DNA from: Spirochaetota bacterium
GTDB taxonomy: Bacteria > Spirochaetota > Brevinematia > DTOW01
DNA length: 64,000 bases
NCBI GenBank assembly: GCA_025061835.1
Contig: JANXAC010000005.1
Span: forward strand, 10,507 to 74,506
Direction: 5' to 3'
This document shows positions 31,943-63,743 of the stretch, one piece after another. Positions within the stretch are counted from its first letter, which is position 1; every line of letters begins with the position of its first letter. The notes under the pieces are model-generated. The model did no database searches, was not told where the DNA came from, and was given only the letters and a program-made list of their open reading frames with translations. The translations under genes were made by a program, and so were the position numbers.

Positions 31943-33544
31943 ATGGTGTTGTTGTTTTTGATTTTCTTGACAGCTGGTGTATATGGCTTTGAAGTATCAA
32001 TGAATTCAGTTGAAAAGTTTCACTACGACTACATTGAAGTGGTAGTAAAAGGCTTTGATAATTCTCTGTCCGATTATGCAGACATTCACTTGATGCTTAC
32101 AAGAGACGGAGGAGTCGTTCCTGACATTATAGGGAGAGATAGGATAAAACCCGTGGTTTCAAAAGACTCTCTTGTATTCCTGTATATCCCACCTTATGGC
32201 ATTAGGGATGGTATATACGACGTTATCATCTCTTCAGAGGACACTATCCTATTTAAAACCAACGTAGTTTTCTTCTCAAGGCAACAAGCAAGGCTTTTAG
32301 AACCTTTGAAAGTTCTAACATTTGAGGAAAACCTTGATATAAGAGACTTATTCTCAAGAAGAGATAAAAGCAAGAAAAATATCCAAAAATATTCAAATCT
32401 TCCTTATAGAAGGAAGAAAGTTTTGACACAATCCTATGCAGGTTCTAAAGAGGATTCTTTGATTGGTGATAGTAGAAGACTTACTTATAAAGAAGTGTCT
32501 GATAGGATTGCTTCCTTAATGCTAGGTTCAGATTTGAATACTTTTCTCATGCTTGGAGCGCAGACAACTTATCTCAAGGATAAGAAGAATGTTTGGTATC
32601 CTGTTGTTCTTACAAACCTTAGTGTGTTAAAGTATCTTAAGGATAAAGGTATACAGACTGGTGCGTATGTAATGTGCTTTCTTACTCTCGGTCAGGATAA
32701 AAAGAATATTTTTAAAGGTTATAAGCCTATAAAAGTTTTAAGGAATGGAAAGATTACAGATGAATACAAATTCACTTCCATAACTTCTTCAAAGCGAGTT
32801 CAGGATATTATTGATATCCTTACCTATATAGGTAGATTGGATTATGTAGATTTTCTGGGATTAGATTTTATTAGGGTAGGAGACTACGGAGGATATGAAC
32901 TTATACCTGACTTTTACAACGAGATACTGTTAAAGTTAAACCTAGAGTCTATAACCAATATTTCGTATCCTACCAATAACATTGACAGAATGTCTAGGTT
33001 TGTAGCAAGTAATGAGAAGTTGAGAAGAGTTTTCAGATGGTATCAGTCCGTAAGGGTAAGTAAGATAATAAAGAAGATAAGGGAAGAACTTATGAATAGG
33101 GGTATAAATAAGCCTCTCATTGCGTTTATGCTTGGGTGGAACGCTGGGAGGGAACACGGACAGGATCTGTTTATGTTTAGAGATGCTGGGATAGATTATT
33201 CTTTCTACATGCTGTATGAGTTTTATACGGACCAGATGTTTGAAGAAGCAGGTAATTACTACTTGAGGTATGTTTATAATCTTGACTCAAACATAGTTTT
33301 CGGGAATATAGTTGATAGTATTCTGAATAGGGGTAATCAGGTAGCACTTGACACCTTTTCAAACAGGCTCAAGATGTTTGTAACGCACTACTCATACTTT
33401 CCTCCAAATGGTTTCTTCATTCATGACTTGTATCGTATCTTACACGGTAGGATAGAACCTTATACTAGAACGGAGTGGTTGCTTAAGATCAAAGAAACTG
33501 TTATGTATATAGATCAAAGTGAGACACTTAATAGGAGATACTAA
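31943..33544 (+). CDS. Secreted protein with possible glycosidase-like TIM-barrel
   Basis: The product of 533 residues has a signal peptide ending near VYGFEV (residue 16). The first domain (about 20-115) looks beta-rich and Ig-like. The main domain (about 180-500) alternates strands and helices. One strand, YVDFLGLDFIRVGDYGGYE, resembles the strand 4 acidic motif of glycoside-hydrolase-like barrels that reads DGIxLDYIRY. GREHGQDLFMFRDAGIDYSFYMLYE lies further on, here in parts. No family can be assigned. The start lacks a Shine-Dalgarno; a TAA is immediately upstream in frame, and GTG 31946 or TTG 31949 are alternative starts. Confidence 0.55.
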   Translation: MVLLFLIFLTAGVYGFEVSMNSVEKFHYDYIEVVVKGFDNSLSDYADIHLMLTRDGGVVPDIIGRDRIKPVVSKDSLVFLYIPPYGIRDGIYDVIISSEDTILFKTNVVFFSRQQARLLEPLKVLTFEENLDIRDLFSRRDKSKKNIQKYSNLPYRRKKVLTQSYAGSKEDSLIGDSRRLTYKEVSDRIASLMLGSDLNTFLMLGAQTTYLKDKKNVWYPVVLTNLSVLKYLKDKGIQTGAYVMCFLTLGQDKKNIFKGYKPIKVLRNGKITDEYKFTSITSSKRVQDIIDILTYIGRLDYVDFLGLDFIRVGDYGGYELIPDFYNEILLKLNLESITNISYPTNNIDRMSRFVASNEKLRRVFRWYQSVRVSKIIKKIREELMNRGINKPLIAFMLGWNAGREHGQDLFMFRDAGIDYSFYMLYEFYTDQMFEEAGNYYLRYVYNLDSNIVFGNIVDSILNRGNQVALDTFSNRLKMFVTHYSYFPPNGFFIHDLYRILHGRIEPYTRTEWLLKIKETVMYIDQSETLNRRY

Positions 33545-33572: not shown

Positions 33573-36260
33573 TTACATGTTGGCAACTGTGTTGTTAGTA
33601 GAATCAGGAGTTGAGTCTATTTGTAATGGGTTATTTATGTTTGTCCAGTCAATATTATTTGTTATTAGTATGTTTCCAGTATATTCTCTGTACAAGTACT
33701 TCAACCTGTTCGTTATGAATGTGTTATTTACTAGTTTATGACCTGTTATGTCTTCATTTTCCTCATATATACCTATCGCTGTAGTATCATTATTACCACC
33801 TATGAAGCAATTTGAGATTATAAGATTCTTCAACTTACTTTGATATTCATGCAAGTAAATGACTGAGTTTGTAGATGAGAGTGTCCAATTATTGGTTATG
33901 TAAGAGTTGAGTAATGAGACATTTGACGCTAATACTATTGATAATCCTCCTCCGTGATTAGTAGCAATATTGTTATACACGCTACCAACTATTGTAATGT
34001 AATTACAACTGGATATATATATGCCTCCACCAGTCTCTGTAATGTTTTGATACACACTTCCAGATAAACTATTAGTATGTGAACTGTTTATATATATTCC
34101 TCCTCCACAGTTTGTAGTAGAATTACTAAATATAGTACCACTTATACTATTGCTATGAGAATAGTCTAGTGTTATACCACCTCCAGAGAAATTAGCGTAG
34201 TTATTGTGTATAATTCCATTTATGGTATTATTACGAGAGCTACTTAGGTTTATTCCTCCGCCTGTGAATTTGGCTCTATTGTTGTATACTGTGCTAGTTA
34301 TGTTGTTAAGATCAGATTGTTGCAGGAAGATTCCACCACCCTGTATAGACTCATTGCTATAAACATTACCACTTATCGTGTTGTTATCAGCAACCAAAAG
34401 GTATATTCCTCCTCCGTTGGTAGCAGCAGTATTATTAAATACATTACCACTTATAGTGTTGTTATGAGAATAGTAAAGGTATATTCCACCCCCATCATTA
34501 GAACTCAAGTTAGCATATACATTACTAGCTATAATATTAGTATGCGAGTAATACATATATATTCCTCCTCCCCCTCTTGTAGAATAGTTGCTGTATACAC
34601 TACTTGCTATTAAATTCTCGCTTGAACTATACAAGTATATTCCTCCTCCTAAGCTACTAGGTTGATTACCTGATGCACTATTGTAATATACACTTCCACT
34701 TATCAGGTTACTGTGAGAGTATGATAGATATATACCTCCTCCCTCATAATTTACAACTCTATTACTGAATATATTTGCAATTATGATGTTACTATGAGAA
34801 GATGCAATGTATATTCCACCACCTCTTGAGCTAGCAGAGTTGTTTGATATTACGACATTACTTATCAGGCTGTATGAAACATTGTCAAGGTATATTCCTC
34901 CTCCTACGCTATGAGGGAAACTACTGTAATTTGCATTACCTTTTCTTATTACTAGGTTTTTTATAACTATGTTGGTTGCATTGGTAATGAATAATATATG
35001 ATATAAAATATTCTCACCATCCAGCTCACTGTATCCTATTATGTTGTTGAAATTTGCATCCCATCCTCCTATTATCCTAATGTTGTTATTCGTTATTAAT
35101 ACACCACTATCACCAATAAATCCGGTTTCATTAACCAACCCACCACCAGAGGTAGGTCTGTATAAACCAGTTGTTGTGTATATCTCATTGACATTATAAA
35201 TTCTAGCTCTACTTACAGCAGTCTGTATATTCCTCACCGGTGAGGTTTTTGATACTCCGTTATTACTATCATTACCGTTAGTTGATACATACATTCTGAG
35301 CGCTACTATAAAACTTACTGATTGTGTTGAACTTGTATTACCAGCATTATCAATGGAATATACATATATTGTATTTACACCTTCATTCAAACTTGTCAAG
35401 TTAGTAGTCCAGTTATCAGTTCCATTAACCTGACCGAAACCTCCACTATCACCTAACCTTAAGAATACACCACTTACTGTGCTGCTATAACTATGTGCTG
35501 TTCCACTTACAGTTATGCTTGTTGAGTTAATTATTTGATTATTTGTTGGATCTGATATGCCAACTGATGATCCTAATTGAATTACGAAACTTACGCTTTG
35601 TGTTGAACTGGTATTCCCAGCATTATCTACTGCATAGACATATATTGTGTTAGTTCCTCCACCTAATCCTGTTAAATTAGTGTTCCAACTACTAGTTCCA
35701 TTAACTCTTCCGAAACCACCAGTATTACCAACCCTTAAATACACACTATTTACTCCACTATAACTATTTGCTGTCCCACTTACACTTACATTATTTGCAT
35801 TGAATGCCTGGTTATTCGTTGGGGTTAAAATATTGACTGATACATAAATTGAAACTATGAAAGTTACACTTTGTGTTGAACTCGTATTCCCAGAATTATC
35901 TACTGCATAAACATATATTGTGTTAGTTCCTTCACTCAATCCTACTAAGTTAGTAGTCCAACTCGTAGTTCCACTTACCTTTCCAAAACCACCAGTATTT
36001 GATAGTCTTAGATAAACTTCTCTAACACCGCTACCTGTATCGCTAGCTGTTCCTATTACTGTTAGAACATTACTCGTGTAACTATTGTTAGTTGGAAAGA
36101 TTATCGTAACGGTTGGTGCTGTTGTATCTACTCCTCCTCCACCTCCACCACTTCCTCTCTCACTTTCATCTCTTCCTGGTTCTGAAGTGCAGCTGATATA
36201 TCCAATAGTGCTAACCAGTAACAGGGTGCTTAAAATCAATATCAACTTGCCTAATCTCAT
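33573..36260 (-). CDS. Surface lipoprotein with three Ig-like repeats and right-handed beta-helix
   Basis: An 895-residue exported lipoprotein. The lipobox is IGYISC near residue 23, followed by a Gly-rich linker (GSGGGGGG). Three tandem Ig-like modules of about 95 residues follow (about 45-330). Each has GGFGxVNGT, a TNLxGL segment and NTIYVYAVDNAGN. A DUF1565-like segment (MYVSTNGNDSNNG) starts at about 334. The remainder, to about 830, is a right-handed beta-helix with about twelve 22-26-residue rungs marked by GGGIYL/GGGIYI and SHxN turns. No catalytic site is visible. It may be an adhesin or glycan-binding surface protein. The ATG at 36260 follows GGAGGT. It is paralogous to the gene at 61977. 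Confidence 0.88.
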   Translation of the reverse strand: MRLGKLILILSTLLLVSTIGYISCTSEPGRDESERGSGGGGGGVDTTAPTVTIIFPTNNSYTSNVLTVIGTASDTGSGVREVYLRLSNTGGFGKVSGTTSWTTNLVGLSEGTNTIYVYAVDNSGNTSSTQSVTFIVSIYVSVNILTPTNNQAFNANNVSVSGTANSYSGVNSVYLRVGNTGGFGRVNGTSSWNTNLTGLGGGTNTIYVYAVDNAGNTSSTQSVSFVIQLGSSVGISDPTNNQIINSTSITVSGTAHSYSSTVSGVFLRLGDSGGFGQVNGTDNWTTNLTSLNEGVNTIYVYSIDNAGNTSSTQSVSFIVALRMYVSTNGNDSNNGVSKTSPVRNIQTAVSRARIYNVNEIYTTTGLYRPTSGGGLVNETGFIGDSGVLITNNNIRIIGGWDANFNNIIGYSELDGENILYHILFITNATNIVIKNLVIRKGNANYSSFPHSVGGGIYLDNVSYSLISNVVISNNSASSRGGGIYIASSHSNIIIANIFSNRVVNYEGGGIYLSYSHSNLISGSVYYNSASGNQPSSLGGGIYLYSSSENLIASSVYSNYSTRGGGGIYMYYSHTNIIASNVYANLSSNDGGGIYLYYSHNNTISGNVFNNTAATNGGGIYLLVADNNTISGNVYSNESIQGGGIFLQQSDLNNITSTVYNNRAKFTGGGINLSSSRNNTINGIIHNNYANFSGGGITLDYSHSNSISGTIFSNSTTNCGGGIYINSSHTNSLSGSVYQNITETGGGIYISSCNYITIVGSVYNNIATNHGGGLSIVLASNVSLLNSYITNNWTLSSTNSVIYLHEYQSKLKNLIISNCFIGGNNDTTAIGIYEENEDITGHKLVNNTFITNRLKYLYREYTGNILITNNIDWTNINNPLQIDSTPDSTNNTVANM

Positions 36261-36524
36261 AGATACCTCCAATATTTTTTGTATTTGAGATTATGTGAGA
36301 GCAAACTTCGTCGTAGATGTAATGGAGTAATTCTATGAACCTAAAGAGCAACGAAAAGTTTTGCTCTCAACATACTCTTCTAAGAGTATATAAATACTTT
36401 ACCTTAAATGTCAAGTATTCTGGTTACTAATTTCATTTGGATATGTGGATTTAAACTTTTGGATAGTAGTATCGTGATATACCACTATTTACTATGTTTA
36501 GAGTAGAAAAACAAGATTGTTGTT

Positions 36525-44109: not shown

Positions 44110-44259
44110 ATTCGCCTCCTTTAATACTCTTTGAAAATTTTAAAAATAACTTCGTTCGCTTTCAATATTAAACGACTGAAGTTTGTAGTAGAGTTTGATA
44201 AAAATTGATGTGAAAGAACCTCTTATCACCTCGTGAAATAAAGGAAAAAAGAGGAATAT

Positions 44260-44391
44260 ATGACAAAACATGAGGACTATAAATCACTTTATCAAAAACT
44301 TTCTACGAAGGTGAGGGGGGAATATTACTTGGGTAGGTATGAAAATGAGGTATTCAGAATACTCTTCAGCAAAAATATCAAACTTCAGTAA
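44260..44391 (+). CDS. Small hypothetical protein (43 residues)
   Basis: A 43-codon frame starts at ATG 44260, six bases after an AAGAGG Shine-Dalgarno, and ends at TAA 44391. The product is charged and aromatic (begins MTKHEDYKSLYQKLS, with GEYYLGRYENEVF in the middle). I recognise no family. It fills the middle of an otherwise empty 330-base gap between the CBM48-like and cupin genes. It could equally be a chance frame. Confidence 0.35.
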   Translation: MTKHEDYKSLYQKLSTKVRGEYYLGRYENEVFRILFSKNIKLQ

Positions 44392-61961: not shown

Positions 61962-61976
61962 GTTTTGGGAGGTTAT

Positions 61977-63743
61977 ATGATATATCTGATGAGACTGATG
62001 ATACCGATCGTGTTTGTTTTAACACTATGTGGGTTTGGTTTCACACAAACACAGAAACCTTCTGCCAAGGATCCTTATGAAGGTGAGACTTCAGTTTATG
62101 TAGCAACTAATGGTAGTGATGAGAATCCCGGTACCAAAGCATTACCGTTTAGAACTATAGAAGTTGCAATTGATAAAGCAGTTATCTTTGGTGTCAGGGT
62201 GATAAAGGTTGCCGAAGGTGTATATACTCCTGGTAATGGACTTAACACAGGCTTTAGTGGAGTTGCAATAAAGCATCATGATATAAAACTTATTGGGGGA
62301 TATGATCAAAGTTTTAGTTCTGTGGTAGGATATTCAACTCTTGATGGGCAGAGAAAAGTTCAAGCAGTGATAGAAGTGAGGAATGTTTCTAACGCTTTGA
62401 TAGAGAACTTTGTAGTTTCTGGGGCAACAAACCGTGAGAAAAACGATAAGAACGGTGGTGGAATTTATCTAAATAAATCCGATGGTTCAACTATTAGGAA
62501 TGTAATATCTTCAAATAACCTTGTTGGTAACGGTGCAGGTATGTGTATCATAGGAAATAGAAACAGAATATTAGATTCCAAAATTATTAGAAACTCTGGA
62601 GAGAATGGGGGAGGCATATATTTAGTAGGTAATTTTAACGAAGTTTCGGAAGTATCAGTTCAGAGTAACAGTGTTGGTATATGGGGAGGAGGGATACTAG
62701 TAGGAGGGGTGAGCAATGTTGTGAAGAATTCAGATGTTTCTTTTAACTCTTCAAGAGAAGGGGGTGGTATCTACATAGATAAAGGCATAGCTAATCAAGT
62801 GCTAGATACTACTATAGGCTTTAACAATGCTCAAAACTCTGGTGGTGGTGTTTTTGTGAATGTTGGCAATGCTAACTTCGTTAGAGCTACTGTGAAAAAT
62901 AACACTTCAAGGGATGGTGGGGGGGTGTATGGTTTTAGGACCGCATCACTTGTAGTTCAATCTTCCATTCTTGAGAATAGTGCTACAAGAAACGGAGGGG
63001 GGATATTCTTTGAGAATACTTTCAAATCTACGGTAAATAGCACGGTAAGTAAAAATTCATCTGGTGCGATTGCTGGAGGAATTTTCTTGAGAGGTGAAGA
63101 AAATAGCATATCTGGAACTATTTCAGAAAATAGATCACAAGACAAGGCAGGAGGCATTTACATAACTGGTCTCAAGAATGTTGTTAAGGCTAGCATAACT
63201 GGTAATAGTTCGCAAAAAGATGGTGGCGGGGTTTATATTGAACTTGCTAGGAGCACAAGAATTGAAGGAAGTGATATATCTGGAAATAAATCGGATAATA
63301 TAGGTGGTGGAATATTCACTATAAGAGATGGAGATACAACTATTGTAGACAGTAAAATAATTAATAACAACTCAAGATTACACGGAGGGGGTATAGCAAT
63401 ATACGACTCAACTAACTCTTTCCTCATGAACCTTGATGTGACTCAAAACAAGTCTGAAATAACGAATAGCATAATATATCTATATAAAACCGATGCTGTG
63501 ATTAACCTAGTGATATCTAACTGCGTAATATCTAGTGTTTCAGGTGCTAGAGGTTTTGGTATATACGAAGATGGGTTGAATGACATAAGTCTTCATAGAA
63601 TAATTGAAAATACTTTTGTTTCAGATACTCTTGCTGGTGGATTGTATAGGGACTACAACCTAGATGCTACTGGACTAATATCAGCTGTAAATAATCCTAG
63701 GTTTTCGGGAGCAAGTGAGGCTAGAGGTAACAAACAGAGATAG
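61977..63743 (+). CDS. Exported right-handed beta-helix protein (DUF1565-like), paralogue of 33573-36260
   Basis: A 588-residue protein with a signal peptide ending near GFGFTQT (residue 23). A DUF1565-like start VYVATNGSDENPGTKALPFRTIEVAIDKA (in pieces) near 40 leads into a right-handed beta-helix with rungs of 22-25 residues marked by GGGIYI, GGGVYI and similar turns from about 160 to 500. The C-terminal cap (IIYLYK, NLVISNCVIS, FGIYED) is related to that of the big lipoprotein. It lacks the lipobox and the Ig repeats. ATG 61977 follows GGGAGG. No catalytic motif is seen. Confidence 0.85.
   Translation: MIYLMRLMIPIVFVLTLCGFGFTQTQKPSAKDPYEGETSVYVATNGSDENPGTKALPFRTIEVAIDKAVIFGVRVIKVAEGVYTPGNGLNTGFSGVAIKHHDIKLIGGYDQSFSSVVGYSTLDGQRKVQAVIEVRNVSNALIENFVVSGATNREKNDKNGGGIYLNKSDGSTIRNVISSNNLVGNGAGMCIIGNRNRILDSKIIRNSGENGGGIYLVGNFNEVSEVSVQSNSVGIWGGGILVGGVSNVVKNSDVSFNSSREGGGIYIDKGIANQVLDTTIGFNNAQNSGGGVFVNVGNANFVRATVKNNTSRDGGGVYGFRTASLVVQSSILENSATRNGGGIFFENTFKSTVNSTVSKNSSGAIAGGIFLRGEENSISGTISENRSQDKAGGIYITGLKNVVKASITGNSSQKDGGGVYIELARSTRIEGSDISGNKSDNIGGGIFTIRDGDTTIVDSKIINNNSRLHGGGIAIYDSTNSFLMNLDVTQNKSEITNSIIYLYKTDAVINLVISNCVISSVSGARGFGIYEDGLNDISLHRIIENTFVSDTLAGGLYRDYNLDATGLISAVNNPRFSGASEARGNKQR

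Follow-up and report, generated by a model that had tools for sequence, protein, structure and literature searches.

A spirochaete lipoprotein-type gene joining Ig-like modules to a capped beta-helix with Pmp-like rungs

The rung pattern of the chlamydial Pmp proteins is given as GGA[ILV], 14-18 residues and FxxN, followed by 4-5 residues in about 57% of cases (PMC11166332). GGGI and VxxN or IxxN are described as non-canonical equivalents of these motifs (PMC10715098), and both sources place the motifs in the buried core (PMC11166332, PMC10715098). Long omega-loops were proposed as ligand contacts in Pmps (PMC10715098), and Pmp6, Pmp20 and Pmp21 mediate adhesion to human cells (PMC2997323). 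Outside Chlamydia, Pmp-like motif pairs were described in a Methanobrevibacter Ig-like domain repeat protein and in a Phycisphaerae protein (PMC10715098). Among spirochaetes, OmpL47 of Leptospira was called membrane-spanning on the basis of barrel prediction programs and of membrane-affinity and surface tests (PMC2698987), and LigA and LigB are surface proteins with Ig-like domains (PMC7821625).

The window analysed here is a stretch of 64,000 nucleotides from a Spirochaetota bacterium of the class Brevinematia. It contains a real, well-formed modular lipoprotein-type gene, referred to below as the target (Table 1). The open frame was recovered where the original prediction had placed it. Its ATG is preceded by GGAGGT at 36265-36270, and a TTG start at 36272, the choice of the ORF tool, is therefore less likely. 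The upstream promoter-like site is weak, since such sites are not enriched in the region, which has 9 against an average of 17.3 in its shuffles. The 5' leader folds better than its shuffles, of which 1 in 200 was as stable, and no second copy of it was found in the genome at E 0.1. A known RNA element was considered for the leader and rejected; Rfam at the gathering threshold returned tRNA only over the window.

Table 1. Features of the target gene and of a paralog within the window (window coordinates)
Feature	Position	Strand	Basis
Coding sequence, 895 aa + stop	33573..36260	-	start ATG 36260
Promoter-like site TTGACA-18-TATACT	36385..36414	-	11/12 positions; weak
5' leader of target gene, hairpin-capable	36262..36378	-	-27.8 kcal/mol, z -3.1
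Signal peptide ending in lipobox-like YIS-Cys24	36189..36260	-	sequence, residues 1-24
Gly-rich linker GSGGGGGG, residues 25-45	36126..36188	-	sequence
Ig-like module 1, residues 46-139	35844..36125	-	Big_7 and OmpL47-type domain
Ig-like module 2, residues 140-230	35571..35843	-	Big_7 and OmpL47-type domain
Ig-like module 3, residues 231-322	35295..35570	-	module modelled alone, pLDDT 90.1, pTM 0.79
N-terminal cap YVSTNGND...GGW...GYSELDG, residues 323-452	34905..35294	-	8 own-genome sequences aligned, two cut
Beta-helix, 13 rungs GGG[IL]-x13-[VIY]xxN, residues 453-795	33876..34904	-	pattern, profiles, model
Chlam_PMP repeat (PF02415), one copy	34806..34859	-	21.6 bits, cut-off 20.6; family not listed for whole protein at E 0.01
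C-terminal cap IGG...GIYEE..DITGH...YLYREY, residues 796-895	33576..33875	-	loose pattern, alignment
Paralog without lipobox, related caps, 13 rungs	61965..63743	+	family match, cap alignment, rung count

A lipid anchor and a Gly linker had been predicted. The linker is present. As to the anchor, a hydrophobic run does lead up to Cys-24 within YISC, and lipidation itself is putative. By our own relaxed pattern, in which Tyr is allowed at position -3, the target has the signal peptide and lipobox Cys of a lipoprotein, and the same pattern found a lipobox-like Cys motif in 12 of the 13 family ORFs of this genome whose N-terminus is in frame. The exception is the paralog at 61965-63743. Tyr at position -3 of a lipobox is unusual and would count against a lipid tether. 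The target is nevertheless taken to be a putative lipoprotein, probably exposed on the outer surface.

Three Ig-like modules were confirmed. Big_7 (PF17957) matched the target in three stretches (66.6 bits against a cut-off of 24.1, E 3.2e-18), which places it in that family, and the modules matched the OmpL47-type repeat domain NF047446 (E 4.4e-26, 91.1 bits, cut-off 40). The Ig part also scored above the cut-off of Glucodextran_B, a non-catalytic domain of an enzyme. Modelled alone, module 3 formed a beta-sandwich (pLDDT 90), for which Foldseek returned Ig/Fn3-like domains, with sulfite dehydrogenase/oxidase at the top, then CbhA Fn3-like modules and, lower, SiiE. The Ig region of the full-length model was of low confidence.

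The modules had been described as near-identical and as the likely product of recent duplication or homogenisation. The first description does not hold for the target gene, and the second is not supported for it. Alignment of the repeat units at the DNA level gave identities of 68, 62 and 69% for the three pairs (62, 58 and 64% in protein), the longest exact DNA repeat within the gene is 21 bp, and Tandem Repeats Finder (score 50) reported nothing in the whole window. Identical residues share the same codon in 57-64% of cases, where codon usage by itself would give about 39%; together with the 58-64% protein identity this argues that the modules have a common ancestry yet have diverged. Module 2 is nearest to the single Ig module of L093, a relative from another species of the genus (67%), and modules 1 and 3 are nearest to module 2 (64-65%). 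Across multi-module genes, the nearest relative lay in the same gene for 9 of 44 modules (shuffle mean 4.5, maximum 14). A recent module duplication was found in the paralog L038 (91% DNA identity over 269 bp). Gene conversion with paralogs was considered for the target and rejected, there being no exact match of at least 20 bp to the 16 fetched own-genome stretches.

A beta-helix of about twelve rungs had also been predicted, and structure prediction bore out the fold. NosD (PF05048; E 1.4e-29, 103.5 bits, cut-off 23.6) and Beta_helix (PF13229; E 1.8e-22, 80.1 bits, cut-off 25.9) both matched above cut-off and the model was beta-helical, which together place the target among the right-handed beta-helices. 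The full-length model, built from three sequences only, had block-mean pLDDT values of 75-98 over residues 451-790, with 30 of 34 blocks at 85 or above; it was poor before about residue 420 (overall mean 61.5). Foldseek with the whole model returned no match at E ≤0.001 (best E 2.5e-3). VIA-align, run on the candidates from Foldseek, aligned PDB beta-helices at Z about 25 (AlgE4 A-module 25.7, AlgE6 25.6, NosD R-domain 25.5, RbmB 23.8; also tailspikes and Vag8). A search by sequence for relatives of solved structure gave none at E 0.01.

The rung count came out close to the predicted one, with 13 GGG[IL] anchors at residues 453-770, spaced 25-31 residues apart. The turns from rung to rung are 4-5 residues long in 9 of the 12 junctions and 6, 6 and 10 residues long in the remaining three. 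The rungs are near-equivalent, rich in Ser, Asn and Gly and low in charge, with 15 D/E/K/R in the 344 residues of the helix (4.4%). The N-terminal cap had no Pfam match at E 1, and the C-terminal cap had one below threshold (14.9 against 24.2 bits). A loose pattern for the C-terminal cap flagged 19 of the 41 family ORFs, one gene being counted twice; the comparison of this cap left aside the rows without a true C-cap (e.g. L035, L037, L040, L095, L109, L111).

On their sequence, all 13 rungs read as a variant of the chlamydial Pmp pattern. The canonical GGA[ILV]-x14-18-FxxN was found 0 times in the target, which thus falls outside the canonical Pmp definition. The helix has 13 copies of the relaxed motif GG[AG][ILVMF]-x12-18-[FYVIL]xxN, whereas 1000 residue shuffles gave 0.085 on average and never more than 2. 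Besides the single copy in the target, which passed the cut-off in one search and was missing from the whole-protein list at E 0.01 in another, PF02415 scored above cut-off in the paralog at 61965-63743 and in 4 of 10 scanned relatives (L093, L094, L095 and L102). Its use as a genome-wide marker was rejected; the profile is not specific, since it matched only 2 of the 18 genomes of the class and also hit the Escherichia coli control.

The target shares with the Pmps a GG[AG][ILV] turn and an [FVIY]xxN turn in each rung at near-fixed spacing, and membership in a paralog family. It differs in its lipobox, its Ig stalk and its mostly tight turns. Its chain ends in the C-terminal cap, and neither a Pmp middle domain nor an autotransporter beta-barrel was among its Pfam families at E 0.01. 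With turns of mostly 4-5 residues, the long omega-loops proposed as ligand contacts in Pmps are missing. Since both sources locate the motifs in the buried core, their likeness argues for a fold and not for binding (PMC11166332, PMC10715098). The Methanobrevibacter protein likewise has a Pmp-like beta-helix in a protein named for its Ig-like domain repeats, and the passages that describe it and the other non-chlamydial case mention no lipid anchor, no caps like those of the target and no spirochaete member (PMC10715098).

NosD/CASH-type right-handed beta-helices share with the target the two profile matches and the fold of the NosD R-domain; at 44.8 bits against a cut-off of 300 for NosD_copper_fam (TIGR04247), the target lies outside the NosD copper maturation family. 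Leptospira OmpL47 shares the repeat domain found in the Ig modules, but the target did not reach the cut-off of the OmpL47 equivalog NF047441 (40.4 against 250 bits). OmpL47 is not known to have a beta-helix. Nor are LigA and LigB, whose Ig domains belong to a different Ig family from those of the target, known to have one. The parts of the target are thus of known kinds and their combination is a variant; Pmp-like rungs in an Ig-repeat protein have already been published for the archaeon. No description of the target's family in Brevinematales was found in the literature at the level of titles and abstract openings. As a separate observation, the NCBI "OmpL47-type beta-barrel domain" matches the target modules, one of which models as an Ig-like sandwich; by analogy, Leptospira OmpL47 may be an Ig-repeat protein instead of a barrel.

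The target's own genome (1.8 Mb) contains 18 ORFs that match it. These correspond to at most about 17 genes, because two of the ORFs are parts of L032 and some pieces cut by a contig end may together make up a single gene (e.g. L040 and L039). The family ORF set (41) covers the window, 16 stretches of the target's genome and 20 from the assemblies G001-G004; some matches in G001-G004 lie outside it (e.g. on G004 contigs 22, 52, 58, 72 and 162), as does L046, a 57-aa fragment below the ORF length limit. L045 is the same gene as the paralog at 61965-63743 and was dropped from the cap alignment and from the lipobox and module counts; in the rung count the window entry was dropped and L045 retained. 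Family architectures comprise a lipobox-like N-terminus, 0 to 9 Ig modules and a capped helix or another C-terminal part. As read from the sequences, L036, L038 and L042 have a different C-terminal domain instead of the capped helix. Four relatives without a lipobox (L092, L094, L102 and L106) are presumably secreted. Read by eye, orthologs of the 61965-63743 paralog in other species have AFSQ or SFAQ at the position expected of a signal peptidase I site. One further own-genome frame, L043 (G000:C8; 1496 aa), contains a lipobox, Ig modules, a Gly linker, a GH13 alpha-amylase and CBM26; it is probably a lipoprotein that is anchored at the surface and degrades starch.

A profile of the N-cap region matched in 13 of the 18 class genomes (by family 5/5, 2/3, 2/2, 4/4 and 0/4) and, elsewhere in the phylum, in 41 of 278 genomes, mostly weakly, with at least 10 matches in two genomes of one other family; at most 11 candidates were scored per genome, so these copy numbers are lower bounds. 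The target's family belongs to a Brevinematales-type lineage. Plasmid carriage was rejected (one weak record, 25% coverage), as were phage relatives, represented by two PHROGs families of unknown function that match the Ig part. Viral contigs were searched for target relatives and none was confirmed.

Variable repeat number among relatives, which the original prediction had proposed as a check, was found in part. Counted over the span from first to last anchor, the target has 13 rungs, its closest relatives L093 and L092 have 10 and 13, and L103 has 6; the Ig modules number 3, 1, 0 and 0, respectively. L031 and L101, the best ortholog-like pair (each the other's best match over both caps, 68% and 61%), have 12 and 8 rungs and 3 and 2 Ig modules. 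A fixed repeat number, which the original prediction had named as a refuting outcome, was therefore absent both from the target's closest relatives and from this pair. Rung number is fixed in two other groups. The paralog at 61965-63743 has 13 rungs in four species (spans of 310, 310, 310 and 311 residues), and cap identity among the four members of the genus is 73-86%; in this it is unlike the variable lipoproteins. A short family group has 7 rungs in all four species (156, 156, 156 and 160 residues). Unit number is thus fixed at some loci and different by whole units at others, in comparisons made between species, each represented by a single genome, and in part between paralogs. The comparison of the target with L093 may itself be one between paralogs, since in the N-cap L035 is closer to L093 (77%) than the target is (65%).

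Broken frames were found in three family genes. In L031 the leader lies in another frame, with the break just after the lipobox, and the gene may be decaying. L032 has an in-frame TAG in the N-cap, and L108 (G004:C35) consists of two overlapping frames with the break within the rungs. These may be pseudogenes, cases of switching or assembly errors. Contig ends cut 7 of the 18 own-genome family ORFs, against about 2.0 expected (Poisson P 0.005), and 4 of the 9 family ORFs fetched from G001 are cut as well. The own-genome excess fits repetitive or strain-variable loci, and low coverage or chance may also account for it.

We lean, with moderate confidence, towards a rod of a known kind, tethered by lipid and either adhesive or ligand-binding, that diversified as whole units were gained and lost. 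The architecture, the family and the differing unit number between relatives were computed; the signal peptide and Cys-24 would provide the membrane anchor, the Gly linker and the three Ig-like modules would form a stalk, and the 13-rung parallel beta-helix with its own caps would be the exposed end. This end may bind a surface, a polymer or a neighbouring cell, and gain or loss of whole Ig modules and rungs in some family members would change the reach and the binding face. Beyond the computed part, we infer lipidation, outer-surface exposure, binding and the existence of a ligand. The target probably helps the cell to stick to something, and it may be an adhesin or glycan receptor, as originally suggested. 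The Pmp-like rung spacing fits (PMC11166332), as does the adhesion reported for Pmp6, Pmp20 and Pmp21 (PMC2997323). L043, with a catalytic head behind a lipobox and Ig modules, fits the presentation of a working head. The short turns, the low-confidence Ig region, the comparisons between species and partly between paralogs, the possible decay of L031 and the two groups of fixed rung number count against the rod. Tight turns also add weight to a passive coat or spacer, in which such rods protect the cell or make up a surface layer with no specific ligand, or to a periplasmic lipoprotein. The low-charge Ser/Asn/Gly-rich rungs and the presumably secreted relatives agree with this account, which we consider rather unlikely; the conserved caps and the varied architectures, one of them with a catalytic head, suggest more than filler.

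The helix could instead be a surface lyase, epimerase or hydrolase, held off the membrane by the Ig modules. Many of its nearest folds are glycan-active (AlgE4, AlgE6, tailspikes, RbmB), beside non-enzymes such as the NosD R-domain, a family-mate has a GH13 amylase and CBM26, and the Ig part scored above the Glucodextran_B cut-off. Fold likeness to enzymes is no proof of function, and the rungs are plain and near-equivalent. With only 15 charged residues in 344, and no catalytic family for the target by Pfam or NCBIfam at E 0.01, a polysaccharide-active enzyme is less likely than an adhesive rod, and we regard it as improbable. A phase- or antigenically variable surface family, with frames switched on and off, seems more improbable still. 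The shifted frames or early stop in L031, L032 and G004:C35 would be expected of it, and repeats or strain variation would cause contig cuts such as those observed. The frame of the target is intact, though, no long simple repeat was visible by eye at the breaks in L031 and L032, Tandem Repeats Finder was silent over the window, and the lack of exact matches to the own-genome stretches gives no sign of recent gene conversion.

More tentatively than the adhesive rod, we propose that this lineage of spirochaetes possesses a Pmp-like surface repertoire of its own. It would consist of Pmp-type rods that are lipid-anchored, stand on Ig stalks and bear caps with no Pfam match above cut-off, diversifying by gain and loss of whole Ig modules and rungs and by frame loss, with one secreted member held fixed. 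If true, the chlamydial Pmp family would have an independent counterpart here. The target's family in any case forms a natural series of similar scaffolds, from 6 to at least 13 rungs and from 0 to 9 Ig modules, in which the contributions of the stalk's length, of the number of rungs and of the caps become directly testable. Pmp-type rungs are hereby extended to a spirochaete lipoprotein setting. The gain is moderate, since the parts are known and an archaeal precedent has been described (PMC10715098).

Conserved synteny of the target was considered and rejected. In the fragmented assemblies G001, G002, G003 and G004 the two genes that flank it are on separate contigs, so no positional ortholog can be named. 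The convergent neighbour at 31943-33544 encodes 533 aa without a Pfam or NCBIfam match at E 0.01. It is conserved (62-64% in the genus, 54% in the sister genus), and its best matches elsewhere in the phylum are at about 30-35%. An AT-rich non-coding repeat of about 215 bp was found at window positions 44175-44389 and at G000:C1:29452-29642, bounded by perfect inverted 11-mers (ACTGAAGTTTG); by itself, the 11-mer occurs in the window no less often than chance would give. The core of the repeat has 20 matches in the genome including itself, the longer ones 74-79% identical, and it looks like a MITE-type element. One copy lies directly upstream of the family gene L032.
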